From Brunnivagina elsteri CCALA 953 (GTDB taxonomy: Bacteria; Cyanobacteriota; Cyanobacteriia; Cyanobacteriales; Nostocaceae): a stretch of 37,168 nucleotides of DNA. This document shows positions 4,780 to 11,096 of this stretch, one piece after another (positions within the stretch are counted from its first letter, which is position 1; the number at the start of each line of letters is the position of its first letter). The position numbers were made by a program, and so were the translations under genes. The stretch is from assembly GCF_002289455.1 (NCBI RefSeq), contig NZ_NTFS01000011.1, positions 1 through 37,168 on the forward strand. The letters are read 5' to 3'. The notes below the pieces were generated by a model, which was given only the letters and a program-made list of their open reading frames with translations, was not told where the DNA came from and did not search any database.

Positions 4780-5826
4780 ATGGCTGCTAAGGATTTCTCT
4801 GGTCAAAATGTACTCGGTCAACTTTTTCGCGGTCAAAACCTTAGAAACGCTGACTTTAGCAACGCTATTATTCGCATGGCTGATTTTCGTAATGCAGTTC
4901 TAAAAGAGGCTAATTTTCAGGGTGCAATTCTCGAACAAGCAGATTTACAGTTTGCTGACCTCCAAGCAGCCAACCTCCAGCAAGCAAAGTTACCATTTGC
5001 CAATCTCCAAGGTGCAAATCTCCAAGAAGCGTCACTAATTGAAGCAATGCTTCAAAGTTGTAATCTTCAACAAGCTGACCTCCAAAAAGCTGATTTACAA
5101 AAAGCCAAACTTTCATTTTCCAACCTCCGTCAAGCAACGCTCCAGGATGCAACACTAATACGTGCTGACCTTCAACAAGTAAATCTCGAAGAAGCAATGC
5201 TCCAACGTGCTGATCTTCAGCAAGTAAACCTGCAAAAAGCCAAGCTTAGGGAAGCTAACCTCCAACAAGCAAACTTACAACAAGCGAATCTTCAAGAAGC
5301 AACACTCCAAAAAGCTAACCTCCAGCAAGTTAATCTTCAACAAGCTAACCTCCAACAAGCAAACCTCCAAAAAGCTAATCTCCAACAAGCTAATCTGTTA
5401 TTAGCTGACCTCCAGCAAGCTAAACTTGAAGGTGCTAACCTACAACAAGCCAATTTACAACAAGCAACGCTCCAAAGTGCTGATTTACAAAATGCGGATT
5501 TGCAAAGTGCTGACCTCCAGCAGGCTAAACTTCAATTTGCTAACCTCAGAGGAGCAAGCTTTCAACAAGCAAACCTCCAAAGAGCGAATTTTCAGAGTAG
5601 TAACTTAGAAAATGCTGCCTTTCAGAGTGCAAACCTCCAGCAAGCAAAACTCCAATTTAGCAATCTTCAAGGTGCTGATTTGCAAGGTGCTGATTTGCAA
5701 GATGCTGATTTACACACGACTGACCTGCGGGGAGCTAAGTATTTGACCACAGCACAAATCCAAGCCGCGAAAAATTGGGATAAAGCTATATATAGCGACG
5801 ATTTTCGCAAGCAACTTGATGGGTGA
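4780..5826 (+). CDS. Gln-rich pentapeptide-repeat protein
   Basis: A 348-aa protein made almost wholly of tandem pentapeptides (roughly 60, residues about 15-325) of the A(N/D)LQQ/A(N/D)LQx type. These should fold as a right-handed quadrilateral beta-helix about 60 pentads long. The Gln-Gln bias in the exposed positions is striking; a common motif is A(D/N)LxX. The C-terminal cap LTTAQIQAAKNWDKAIYSDDFRKQL is the standard end of cyanobacterial pentapeptide proteins. There is no signal peptide or second domain, so it is probably cytoplasmic. The repeats make a large shadow frame on the other strand. Function is unknown; some family members mimic DNA or scaffold proteins. Confidence 0.9.
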   Translation: MAAKDFSGQNVLGQLFRGQNLRNADFSNAIIRMADFRNAVLKEANFQGAILEQADLQFADLQAANLQQAKLPFANLQGANLQEASLIEAMLQSCNLQQADLQKADLQKAKLSFSNLRQATLQDATLIRADLQQVNLEEAMLQRADLQQVNLQKAKLREANLQQANLQQANLQEATLQKANLQQVNLQQANLQQANLQKANLQQANLLLADLQQAKLEGANLQQANLQQATLQSADLQNADLQSADLQQAKLQFANLRGASFQQANLQRANFQSSNLENAAFQSANLQQAKLQFSNLQGADLQGADLQDADLHTTDLRGAKYLTTAQIQAAKNWDKAIYSDDFRKQLDG

Positions 5827-6556: not shown

Positions 6557-6587
6557 CTGAAAATATTTAAATTGGTTAATGATTAGA

Positions 6588-6615
6588 AGAGACGACCCGC
6601 CGAGTCGTCTGTACG
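6588..6615. repeat. Dispersed 28-bp hairpin repeat, copy 1
   Basis: Stem AGACGAC (6590-6596) with GTCGTCT (6604-6610), followed by GTACG. The 28-bp unit matches 9544-9571 at 26 of 28 positions. This copy sits between pth and tatA; the other is inside the alpha-mannosidase reading frame. Confidence 0.75.
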
Positions 6616-6671
6616 GGAGTTGGGAGTTAGGAATTATTTCACCATTATCCTCTTTTTACCCATTATCTAAT

Positions 6672-7684: not shown

Positions 7685-7715
7685 AATTCCCAATTCCCAA
7701 TTCCCAATTCCCAAT
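7685..7715. repeat. STRR heptamer AATTCCC, about 4.4 copies
   Basis: Four perfect tandem AATTCCC units plus AAT, lying between the convergent psbN and alpha-mannosidase genes and preceded by GGAATT-GGGGT-AATTCC. Heptanucleotide tandem repeats like this (STRR) are characteristic of heterocystous cyanobacteria. Confidence 0.85.
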
Positions 7716-7718
7716 GTC

Positions 7719-10700
7719 CTATCCCTTATGCCTTCTCATCTTAAAACTAACGACTTTCCAAGGCTGAATTGTGAAGTTTTGTTGATTAGATGAGAATGAA
7801 GGTGTGGGAATAGGGCGTTCAAGTAAATCTACTTGTGTTTCTAAGGTGTAACCGAAATCACTGTGAAGGTGCATTTCGGCGGTTTTGCCCTGACATTCAT
7901 AACATCGTATAATGATGGCTTCTGGGTCGTCTTCGGCTGGTTTGAATGCCATTAATATCACGTTTTCGGCGGATAGGTTTAATAAACTAAAGCTGTCTTG
8001 GATGGGGTTGGGTTTTTCGATACTGTTTATTGCGATCGCAATATTCCCATCTGGTTGTGATTGTTTGGAATTTTTCTCGGTATTTTCCCAATTTTCACAA
8101 TTTAATACCTGTAGGGGCAGGTTTAATTCATATCCTCGTCTTACTGTTTGCGCTTCTTCCCAGCTACCTGCGTGGGGATATAGGGCGTAAGTAAATTCGT
8201 GGATACCTTTATCGGCTTCGGAATCGGGGTATTCTGTTCCTCGCAGTAATGTTAATCGCAGTTGGTTTGGTGTTGCGTCATAGCCGTATTTACAGTCGTT
8301 GAGTAAGCTAACACCATATTTTTGGTGGTTATTTTCTTTCCCATTTTCCCATTCCCCATTTTGAGTTAAATCTGCCCATCTTAATGCTGGTACTTCCCAT
8401 TTCGCTTTTTCTTCTGGGGTTTGGGGTTTGGTGGTACGAGGAATGGCTCCACAGGGAATTTCGTAGGTGGCAAAGCCGGATTCTATCGTTAGGGGAAAGG
8501 CTGCTTTGACTATGATGTGACGTTCTTGCCAGTCTACTTTGGTGACGATTTTCAGGAGGGGGGAATTTGTTACCAGGATGTAATCTTGTTGGAATTGCGA
8601 TCGCTCTATTTGCCGAATCACTCGCAGGCTGGTTTGAATTTGCCCTTGCTCTAGGAATTCGATTGATTTTAGTTCTGAGAAGGGAAGGGGATGTTGAGCG
8701 TAGTTTGGATCGATGTTCCATGCATCCCAATATTGACCACTATCTGTAAATGCTTGGAGTTGATTTCCCTTTCCGTTGAGGATTTCTTTGTTATTAATTA
8801 GGTCAAATATGCTAGTTAAATCTCCTGTTTTCTCGTCTACAATTACTCGCAAAAATTCGTTCTCTATGGCAATTTTTTCGGGAGTTAATGTTATTTGATT
8901 TTTTGAAAATAAAATGCTATCGTTATCTTGGGCTACCCTATTGGGATTTTCTGAATTATTCAAGCAGAGCCAAAATATTTTATACCCAATTGCTGGAATG
9001 TTTTCCGCTAGGAATAGGAGTTTTGAGGGTTTACTGATTTGGGAAGGTATGATTTTTCCATCAGTGGTAAAGATACAAGGGTTAGTGGTTTGATTAGGTA
9101 AGTCGATGATGACGACTTGGGAGCGTTGCCAGTTGAGGGAATTGAAGATGAAAATCGGTTTTGCGTCGGGATGGGGAGGTTTTGGGAGTCGCTTCGGGAT
9201 AATCGCATTTAATGAGTCTTGTAAAATTCGGGTTCCAATGGTTTGGATTTCCTGCCATTCTGGTAATGTGTCGGTATAGACTTCTGTGATGGAGGAACCG
9301 GGTAGAATATCGTGGAATTGGTTAAATAAGAGTTTTTTCCAGCATTTTTCGAGTTCTGAGTGGGGATATTCTAGATTAGAGGCGATTTTTGCCCAAGTTG
9401 CGAATAATTCCGCCTCATACAAAAGGTTTTCGCATTTACGGTTCAAGCTTTTTTGTTCGCCGTGGGTAGTAAAGCAACCGCGATGGAATTCGAGGTAAAG
9501 TTCGTCGTTCCAGGTTGGGAATTGGGAAGATGGGGAAGATGGGAGAGACGACCCACCGGGTCGTCTGTACGAAGGAGAAGGGGGAGATGAAAGATTATTT
9601 AATTCTTCGATTTCTGTTTCTTCCTGTTTCTCAATTACCCATTCCCCAATTTTTTGAATATGACGTAAATAATTTTCTGCGGTAGTAAATTCTAATTCTG
9701 GGAAAAACTGAGATTTTTGCCAACGTTGGGCTATTTCTAGCATATCACGAGTAGGTCCACCGCCGTGGTCGCCGACTCCGGGAAGCCAAAGTGCATCGGG
9801 AATATGGGTTTGGGTTTGCCATTCGCAGGCATATGCAGCCATTTTCAAGGGGTCAATACCTTCACCAATGAGTGCTGACATGTAACTAAATATTTGACTA
9901 CCATCGGGAGATTGCCACCAAAAAGCACCGTGGGGAAATTTATTTGTGTCATTCCAACGTAGTTTTTGGGTGACAAAGTATTCGATTCCAGCTTGCTGCA
10001 TTAATTGGGGTAAAGTCCAACAGAAACCAAAGGTATCGGGAACCCAAATAATAGGTGAAATTATACCGAATTTTTCTTGGGTATAGCGTTGTCCATAAAG
10101 TAATTGTCTGACGATGGATTCCCCGGAAATTAAATTTAAATCGGGTTCGATCCAGAAACCACCGAGAACTTCCCATTTTCCGGTTTTGACTTTGGCTTGA
10201 ATTTTTGTGAATAAGTCGGGACGATTTTTTTCAATCCATTCATATAAAGCTGGTGTGGAATGGCAGAAAGTTAATTCGGGGAAGTCTTCTTGGAGGTTTA
10301 AGACTGATTCAAAGGTGTTTTGTGCTGCTTTCCAAGTTTCCTCGACTTGCCATAACCATGCCATATCGAGATGTGCATGTCCTAATAGGAAGATTTTGGT
10401 ATTTTCCCAATTCTGTGGGATTTTAGAGAGGTTTGCTAATACTTTTTTGAATAATTCTGGATTTTCTGTGGTTGTGTGGTTGGTTATCTCTTCTACAGAG
10501 GAGGCTAAAATCGGCAAATTTTCAGGAGCAAAAGTCTCTAGATACTTTTGAATTACAGCAATCTCATCAGCAATAAATCCAGCATCGAGGGAATTATTAT
10601 TGGTGTTTTCGTAGAGAAGATGCGATCGCATTAATGCTCCATTGTCATGTGCTGGAGTTATTAACCGCACTGCAACAGTAAATTTGTTTCCGGGGGTTAC

Positions 10701-11096
10701 AGCATGGGAAAGTAGTACCCGTGGGGAAAAATCGAATAAATCTCCGGCTGCTGCAAGTTTACCATTTACATATACCTGTGCTGTATCTGCCCACCATATA
10801 AGGGCTAATCGTAATGATAAATCTTGTAATGGGTAACAGGAATGTAGATTTTTAGATACTACAATAGTTTGTGCTAGCCATAATACCTTACGTCCTTTGT
10901 CTCTGGGTATATGTGCTTTTTCGTTGAGAATAGCCAATTCCCAAGTTGATATATCTGAAGCAAAAACTTCGTCGGGGGGGAAATCAACTTCAGAATATCG
11001 CCAAGTATTTTGGATATCGACTTGGCAGTGCGATCGCAGTTGCTCGATTGCTGCGATTATAGATTTAGTATTGGGTGTAGATACGAAAGATGTCAT
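7719..11096 (-). CDS. Alpha-mannosidase, glycoside hydrolase family 38
   Basis: A 1125-aa enzyme expected to remove alpha-linked mannose from glycans. GH38 signatures: HAHLDMAWLW (about residues 238-247), giving zinc ligands His and Asp; the nucleophile region WVPDTFGFCWTLPQL (about 350-364); and WLPGVGDHGGGPTRDML (about 437-453), where a family His/Asp pair sits. There is an N-terminal beta domain and a long C-terminal GH38C beta region. No signal peptide is seen, so it is likely cytosolic. Oddity: about residues 499-529 are a Pro/Ser-rich segment encoded by a dispersed hairpin repeat and CCATCTTCC-type short repeats, inserted in frame before WNDELYLEFHRG. The gene stands alone and converges with psbN. 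The natural substrate is not evident. Confidence 0.93.
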   Translation of the reverse strand: MTSFVSTPNTKSIIAAIEQLRSHCQVDIQNTWRYSEVDFPPDEVFASDISTWELAILNEKAHIPRDKGRKVLWLAQTIVVSKNLHSCYPLQDLSLRLALIWWADTAQVYVNGKLAAAGDLFDFSPRVLLSHAVTPGNKFTVAVRLITPAHDNGALMRSHLLYENTNNNSLDAGFIADEIAVIQKYLETFAPENLPILASSVEEITNHTTTENPELFKKVLANLSKIPQNWENTKIFLLGHAHLDMAWLWQVEETWKAAQNTFESVLNLQEDFPELTFCHSTPALYEWIEKNRPDLFTKIQAKVKTGKWEVLGGFWIEPDLNLISGESIVRQLLYGQRYTQEKFGIISPIIWVPDTFGFCWTLPQLMQQAGIEYFVTQKLRWNDTNKFPHGAFWWQSPDGSQIFSYMSALIGEGIDPLKMAAYACEWQTQTHIPDALWLPGVGDHGGGPTRDMLEIAQRWQKSQFFPELEFTTAENYLRHIQKIGEWVIEKQEETEIEELNNLSSPPSPSYRRPGGSSLPSSPSSQFPTWNDELYLEFHRGCFTTHGEQKSLNRKCENLLYEAELFATWAKIASNLEYPHSELEKCWKKLLFNQFHDILPGSSITEVYTDTLPEWQEIQTIGTRILQDSLNAIIPKRLPKPPHPDAKPIFIFNSLNWQRSQVVIIDLPNQTTNPCIFTTDGKIIPSQISKPSKLLFLAENIPAIGYKIFWLCLNNSENPNRVAQDNDSILFSKNQITLTPEKIAIENEFLRVIVDEKTGDLTSIFDLINNKEILNGKGNQLQAFTDSGQYWDAWNIDPNYAQHPLPFSELKSIEFLEQGQIQTSLRVIRQIERSQFQQDYILVTNSPLLKIVTKVDWQERHIIVKAAFPLTIESGFATYEIPCGAIPRTTKPQTPEEKAKWEVPALRWADLTQNGEWENGKENNHQKYGVSLLNDCKYGYDATPNQLRLTLLRGTEYPDSEADKGIHEFTYALYPHAGSWEEAQTVRRGYELNLPLQVLNCENWENTEKNSKQSQPDGNIAIAINSIEKPNPIQDSFSLLNLSAENVILMAFKPAEDDPEAIIIRCYECQGKTAEMHLHSDFGYTLETQVDLLERPIPTPSFSSNQQNFTIQPWKVVSFKMRRHKG
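9544..9571. repeat. Dispersed 28-bp hairpin repeat, copy 2, inside GH38 gene
   Basis: Stem AGACGACCC (9546-9554), 3-nt loop, GGGTCGTCT (9558-9566), then GTACG. It matches the intergenic copy at 6588-6615 at 26 of 28 positions, and the stem here is longer and perfect. Read on the minus strand it encodes SYRRPGGSS within the alpha-mannosidase. Confidence 0.8.

Follow-up and report, generated by a model that had tools for sequence, protein, structure and literature searches.

A short palindromic repeat, here called REP-A, and the short tandem repeats beside it have very likely been inserted in frame into the linker that joins the GH38N domain of a GH38 alpha-mannosidase to its middle domain, a tolerant joint at which the active repeats of a lineage accumulate. 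The gene lies in a stretch of 37,168 nucleotides from Brunnivagina elsteri CCALA 953, the whole of which is called the window below, and its features are given in Table 1. Its product carries GH38N (residues 234-489), Alpha-mann_mid (536-632), GH38C (744-959) and C2 (1045-1118) domains, and with the N-terminal, middle and C-terminal GH38 domains all present in order it is a member of this family; the nearest PDB structures are those of yeast Ams1 and related enzymes. When we checked whether the protein is full length, as proposed in a preliminary description of this DNA, the open reading frame was found to span 1125 residues with all GH38 domains. The same description placed the repeat within the catalytic domain, which was not borne out, as the repeat is located in the inter-domain linker between GH38N and the middle domain. 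In a weak structure model of the protein (mean pLDDT 63.5), the linker scored below 50, and disorder of the linker is not proven by this model because part of the conserved core also scored below 50.

Table 1 Features of the GH38 gene and of its repeats in the window.
Feature	Position	Strand	Remark
GH38 alpha-mannosidase gene, Ams1-like	7719-11096	-	Full-length ORF, 1125 aa
Hypervariable linker, residues 482-528, at the GH38N/Alpha-mann_mid joint	9513-9653	-	
Short tandem repeat CCCATCTTCCCCATCTTCCCAATTCCC	9515-9543	-	Mostly absent from Calothrix sp. CSU_2_0 (alignment)
REP-A unit, in frame	9544-9571	-	Codons 9543-9572 encode SYRRPGGSSL, residues 509-518
CCCATTCC-type repeat, linker start	9627-9652	-	Family shared with 7686-7711 and 8337-8362
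Second in-frame CCCATTCC-type repeat	8337-8362	-	About residues 912-920, NGEWENGKENN; not in solved relatives
REP-A copy, intergenic, tatA-pth	6588-6615	-	Site empty in both closest relatives

The pair of 28-bp repeats on which the preliminary description was built (9544-9571 and 6588-6615) was found again with 26 of 28 positions identical (93%), and this resemblance is beyond chance. On the gene strand, the in-gene unit consists of a CGTAC tag, AGACGACCC, a GGT loop (ACC on the forward strand), GGGTCGTCT and CT, and the two arms form a perfect 9-bp stem, whereas one stem position is mismatched in the intergenic copy. The stem is indeed read in frame within the GH38 gene, where the unit encodes residues 509-518, and the REP-encoded residues of the linker include RPGGSSLPSSPSSQFPTWNDELYLEFHR. 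The short repeats reported to flank the unit are also real. However, the exact CCCATTTTCCCATTCCCCA unit has a single other near copy in the genome, and this insert is therefore tied only loosely to a dispersed family. Using pattern searches of the draft genome (7.0 Mb, 801 contigs), we found 57 copies of the REP-A 26-mer with up to three mismatches, compared with none for a reversed-pattern control, and about 80 copies of a looser REP-A core; these counts are lower bounds because the draft is split into 801 contigs. With its 9-bp stem and 3-nt loop, REP-A has the shape of a REP palindrome (20-40 bp, a 5-13 bp stem and a short loop), and its 57-80 copies are dispersed and mainly intergenic, with only 2 of the 57 in recognised genes. 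The tag is GTAG in most of the 57 copies and GTAC in a large minority, to which the in-gene copy belongs. By its anatomy, REP-A resembles a GTAG-type REP palindrome, and its in-gene copy is tagged GTAC.

Comparison of the three members of the genus, namely the window's genome (G000), Calothrix sp. CSU_2_0 (G002) and Calothrix sp. NIES-4101 (G001), gave an order of events for the linker. REP-A is present in about 80 copies in the window's genome and about 95 in CSU_2_0, and it is absent from NIES-4101. In the GH38 linker, it is found in the same frame in the window's genome and in CSU_2_0, and NIES-4101 lacks it. Since REP-A is missing from both the genome and the linker of NIES-4101, it would most simply have entered the linker after the split from that lineage. 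About 21 nt of a CCATCTTCC-type repeat follow REP-A in the window and are missing in CSU_2_0, so that this tandem repeat would have been added later, in the window's lineage. The spacer between tatA and pth records a more recent event. The REP-A copy there is missing at the matching place in CSU_2_0, in which TatA is 98% identical, and because of this absence REP-A appears, on sequence comparison, to have been mobile more recently than its arrival in the GH38 linker. In the window this copy adjoins a short stretch of CTCCTAA-type repeat, and the CSU_2_0 spacer is filled with CTCCTAA-type tandem repeats. Across the whole spacer (window 6557-6671; about 9849-10036 in the CSU_2_0 locus, L105), CSU_2_0 carries long CTCCTAA and TGGGCAA repeats, and NIES-4101 has neither REP-A nor these tandem repeats.

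To see how far this behavior extends, the linker was extracted from 80 named genomes in addition to the relatives of the window's genome. Its length in the 80 named homologues ranges from 18 to 222 nt (median 72), and all 117 distinct linkers have a length that is a multiple of three and contain no stop. In other families of the order, ten genomes have linkers of 21-51 nt and one has a linker of 171 nt, and six Nostoc-like species have a linker of six residues (QADFPT type). Nostoc sp. FACHB-280 has a linker of this length. Because the linkers of other families are mostly short and these six species have only six residues, the long linkers can most simply be read as gains. Among 170 homologue pairs that share 94% identity or more across 412 flanking residues, the linker length is equal in 6%, compared with 100% for the GH38N length. 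The filling itself varies by lineage and includes REP-A, a second palindrome (REP-B, GTAGAGACGCGATT.ATCGCGTCT) in two frames, and several heptamer-type short tandemly repeated repeats (STRRs), with units such as CAGAATTCAG, TCCAAAATC, GGAGGCAGG and CCTGCCTCC. For 32 of the 80 linkers, none of the listed repeat motifs was matched, and 11 of these 32 are just 18-36 nt long. The alignment of close homologues proposed in the preliminary description thus gave homologues without the same segment, its genome search with the 28-mer gave dozens of further copies, and its central claim that a dispersed repeat has become protein-coding is supported, as neither of the two findings that it named as refuting this claim was obtained. 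Its remark that such in-frame insertions are rare does not hold for GH38, where they are common across heterocystous cyanobacteria.

An alternative reading is that this is an ordinary low-complexity Pro/Ser linker whose length is driven by slippage and whose likeness to intergenic repeats reflects shared composition. Serine and proline do make up 37% of the linker residues, and many linkers consist of PAS, SPS or heptamer units in tandem. However, the REP-A and REP-B palindromes cannot come from slippage, and as a source of the REP part of the linker it is refuted. The origin of linker DNA was also followed through its 15-mers, of which 21.6% recur in 1.4 Mb of locus flanks, compared with 1.7% for the adjacent domains, a 12-fold difference from the neighboring coding DNA. 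These matches are mainly non-genic, with 83% lying outside ORFs of at least 120 codons, compared with 30% of the flanking DNA. The per-locus Wilcoxon test of linker against domain recurrence gave a p-value of 8e-7, uncorrected for relatedness and thus indicative only, because related sequences are not independent. In addition, a linker 15-mer recurs inside its own 20 kb at 15 of 80 loci, compared with 0 of 80 for a control of the same length. We therefore consider composition and slippage quite improbable as the whole explanation. Slippage probably accounts for growth of the linker after seeding, and much of the STRR content could have arisen by local slippage without insertion. Taken together, the comparative data indicate that, across the heterocystous cyanobacteria, the GH38N/middle linker acts as a sink for repeats.

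The reading frames of the palindromes follow the same rule as the linker lengths. REP-B is read as VETRFIASV (pattern VETRxIASV) in the linkers of a set of Nostoc species, and as RDAINRVS or close variants in those of Scytonematopsis, Nodularia and others. Its two stop-free frames are exactly those observed, and the third has stops. For REP-A, a GTAG-tagged copy would place a TAG stop in the frame of the window's gene, and the in-gene copy is tagged GTAC. Where the linker carries REP-B, the genome holds about 10 to 350 copies elsewhere, and NIES-4101 has one. In the tree, the REP-B label missed one locus (L121), in which the first stem base is changed, though REP-B is seen there.

It can also be proposed that the gene is in decay and that insertions are tolerated because it is no longer needed. 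The homologue of CSU_2_0, a low-coverage draft, has an in-frame stop and a frame break at about residues 732-770. Nearly all relatives, in contrast, have full-length ORFs, every linker is in frame, and dN/dS of the GH38 domains is 0.16-0.23 (0.17 against CSU_2_0, the closest relative, and 0.16 against NIES-4101), from which the domains are judged to be under purifying selection. Decay thus has next to no probability. The break in CSU_2_0 (locus L105, G002:C298, residues 732-770), which has a short overlap, is possibly an assembly error of the low-coverage draft. Another proposal is that the hairpin has been retained because it serves the mRNA or the protein, for example through a translational pause between domains or a tuning of domain movement. 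The hairpin does sit at a domain boundary, and a 9-bp RNA hairpin is possible. However, when the folding of the linker region was examined, nothing unusual was found (z -1.1), a hairpin of this kind is missing at this place in most homologues, and some linkers are just six residues long, which makes such a function highly improbable.

In our preferred explanation, that of insertion into a tolerant joint, mobile REPs and expanding tandem repeats would land at many sites of the genome, REP-A presumably being moved by a RAYT transposase and the STRRs growing through slippage. The linker would tolerate almost any in-frame, stop-free and hydrophilic sequence, and an insert there would be neutral, so that active repeats could accumulate and turn over at this joint, and selection would purge insertions elsewhere in the gene. 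The dispersed repeat that is active in a lineage may thus accumulate in the linker, slip and get replaced.

The movement part of this explanation was examined through the transposases. The window's genome has a RAYT gene (NF047646) with a score of 198 bits, where the cut-off is 80, and a close relative of it is present in CSU_2_0 and was not found in NIES-4101; this distribution fits RAYT-driven movement of REP-A. Two RAYT transposase genes of the window's genome (G000:C76:12972-13511 and G000:C216:2140-2679) share 84% identity, and one of them contains an internal TAG. Two points stand against this part of the explanation. First, no REP-A was found beside the RAYT genes, in a search restricted by contig ends. 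Second, a genome of another genus, assembled as a single contig (G021), has about 300 REP-A-like palindromes and no RAYT that is closely related to the one in the window's genome. The GH38 linker of this genome is short (L175). In one relative (L196), a different GTAG hairpin lies near the RAYT gene.

Outside the linker, four further variable sites were seen in the GH38 protein, three at or near domain joints (about residues 226-234, 714-737 and 1000-1030). The fourth (912-927) falls within the C-terminal region. These sites are enriched in dispersed k-mers (22-50%, compared with 8% for the rest of the gene). Lineage-specific repeat inserts are found at such sites in several loci (L063-L142), of which L121, with two REP-B copies, and L128, with an insert of 79 residues, are examples. 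The two REP-A copies in recognised genes, those of GH38 and of an SLH/OprB iron-uptake porin, are both in frame and both in linkers. The porin copy (contig C158, about 9323-9348; L150) is located in the N-terminal linker before the SLH domain; at this linker (L169-L171), CSU_2_0 also has REP-A and NIES-4101 has other repeats. Since recognised genes hold just 2 of the 57 copies although the genomes are mostly coding, these data suggest that a REP-A insertion into a gene is almost always lost again. A broader proposal is that inter-domain joints in GH38, the SLH porin and other proteins are general sinks that convert repeats to linkers, giving near-identical enzymes with unrelated linkers, and that this turnover alters enzyme behavior and is partly selected. 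We regard this broader version as unlikely.

Compared with known systems, REP-A shares several features with the GTAG super-family of REPs, which has families in Nostoc and Anabaena (GTAG-12, GTAG-15 and GTAG-16 being cyanobacterial) and includes copies within ORFs (Di Nocera 2013, PMC3733652). As in those REPs, a short palindrome, with an end tag that is GTAG in most copies, is present in dozens of copies, mainly intergenic and some in ORFs. Unlike in those REPs, the window copy is tagged GTAC, and across dozens of species one linker has been entered by REPs and by tandem repeats of several types. It was proposed that REP insertions in flexible linkers are possibly neutral, and in two Xanthomonas species, recB carries REPs that differ from each other but lie at nearly the same position (PMC3733652). 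The REPtron, a RAYT flanked by its REP, is common, can be lost and is missing in some REP-bearing species (PMC3733652); in the window's genome a RAYT is present, but no REP-A was found beside it as far as the contig ends allow. REPINs are REP doublets associated with RAYT transposases (PMC3116915), and the window's genome likewise has opposite-orientation REP doublets (for example in contigs C44 and C785) and RAYT genes; however, the in-gene REP-A occurs as a lone unit and REP-A does not flank the RAYT genes. Rickettsia palindromic elements (RPEs) are in-frame palindromic repeats in ORFs that are likely still functional (PMC3733652), and REP-A in GH38 and the porin resembles them at the sequence level in its in-frame insertion into apparently functional ORFs. 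In contrast, the CGTC that forms the unpaired terminal tag of RPEs sits within the paired stem in REP-A, and RPEs are scattered over many genes rather than found in one recurrent linker.

In-frame REP and RPE insertions and their proposed neutrality in flexible linkers are already known, and what is new here is that one linker has been filled recurrently by several repeat families. In the open-access literature that we searched, we found no report of this GH38 linker, nor of a single joint that several repeat families without relation to each other have filled anew across an order. The GH38 joint can be used as a natural experiment in the origin of protein linkers, as the same joint was repeatedly filled and the surrounding enzyme is intact. 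It provides a replicated series in one enzyme, in which a single site was filled in many lineages, by several repeat families and in different frames, and in which the remaining protein serves as an internal control. This makes it possible to test directly whether new protein segments are seeded by mobile palindromes. Nostoc-type genomes also reportedly contain small dispersed repeats (SDRs) and STRRs, described by Elhai in 2008 as tiny and often nested in heptamer repeats; the window's repeats, compared by description alone, are likewise tiny and nested in heptamer repeats. Elsewhere in the window (4780-5826), a pentapeptide-repeat-like protein of 348 aa is encoded by DNA with very regular 15-nt repeats.
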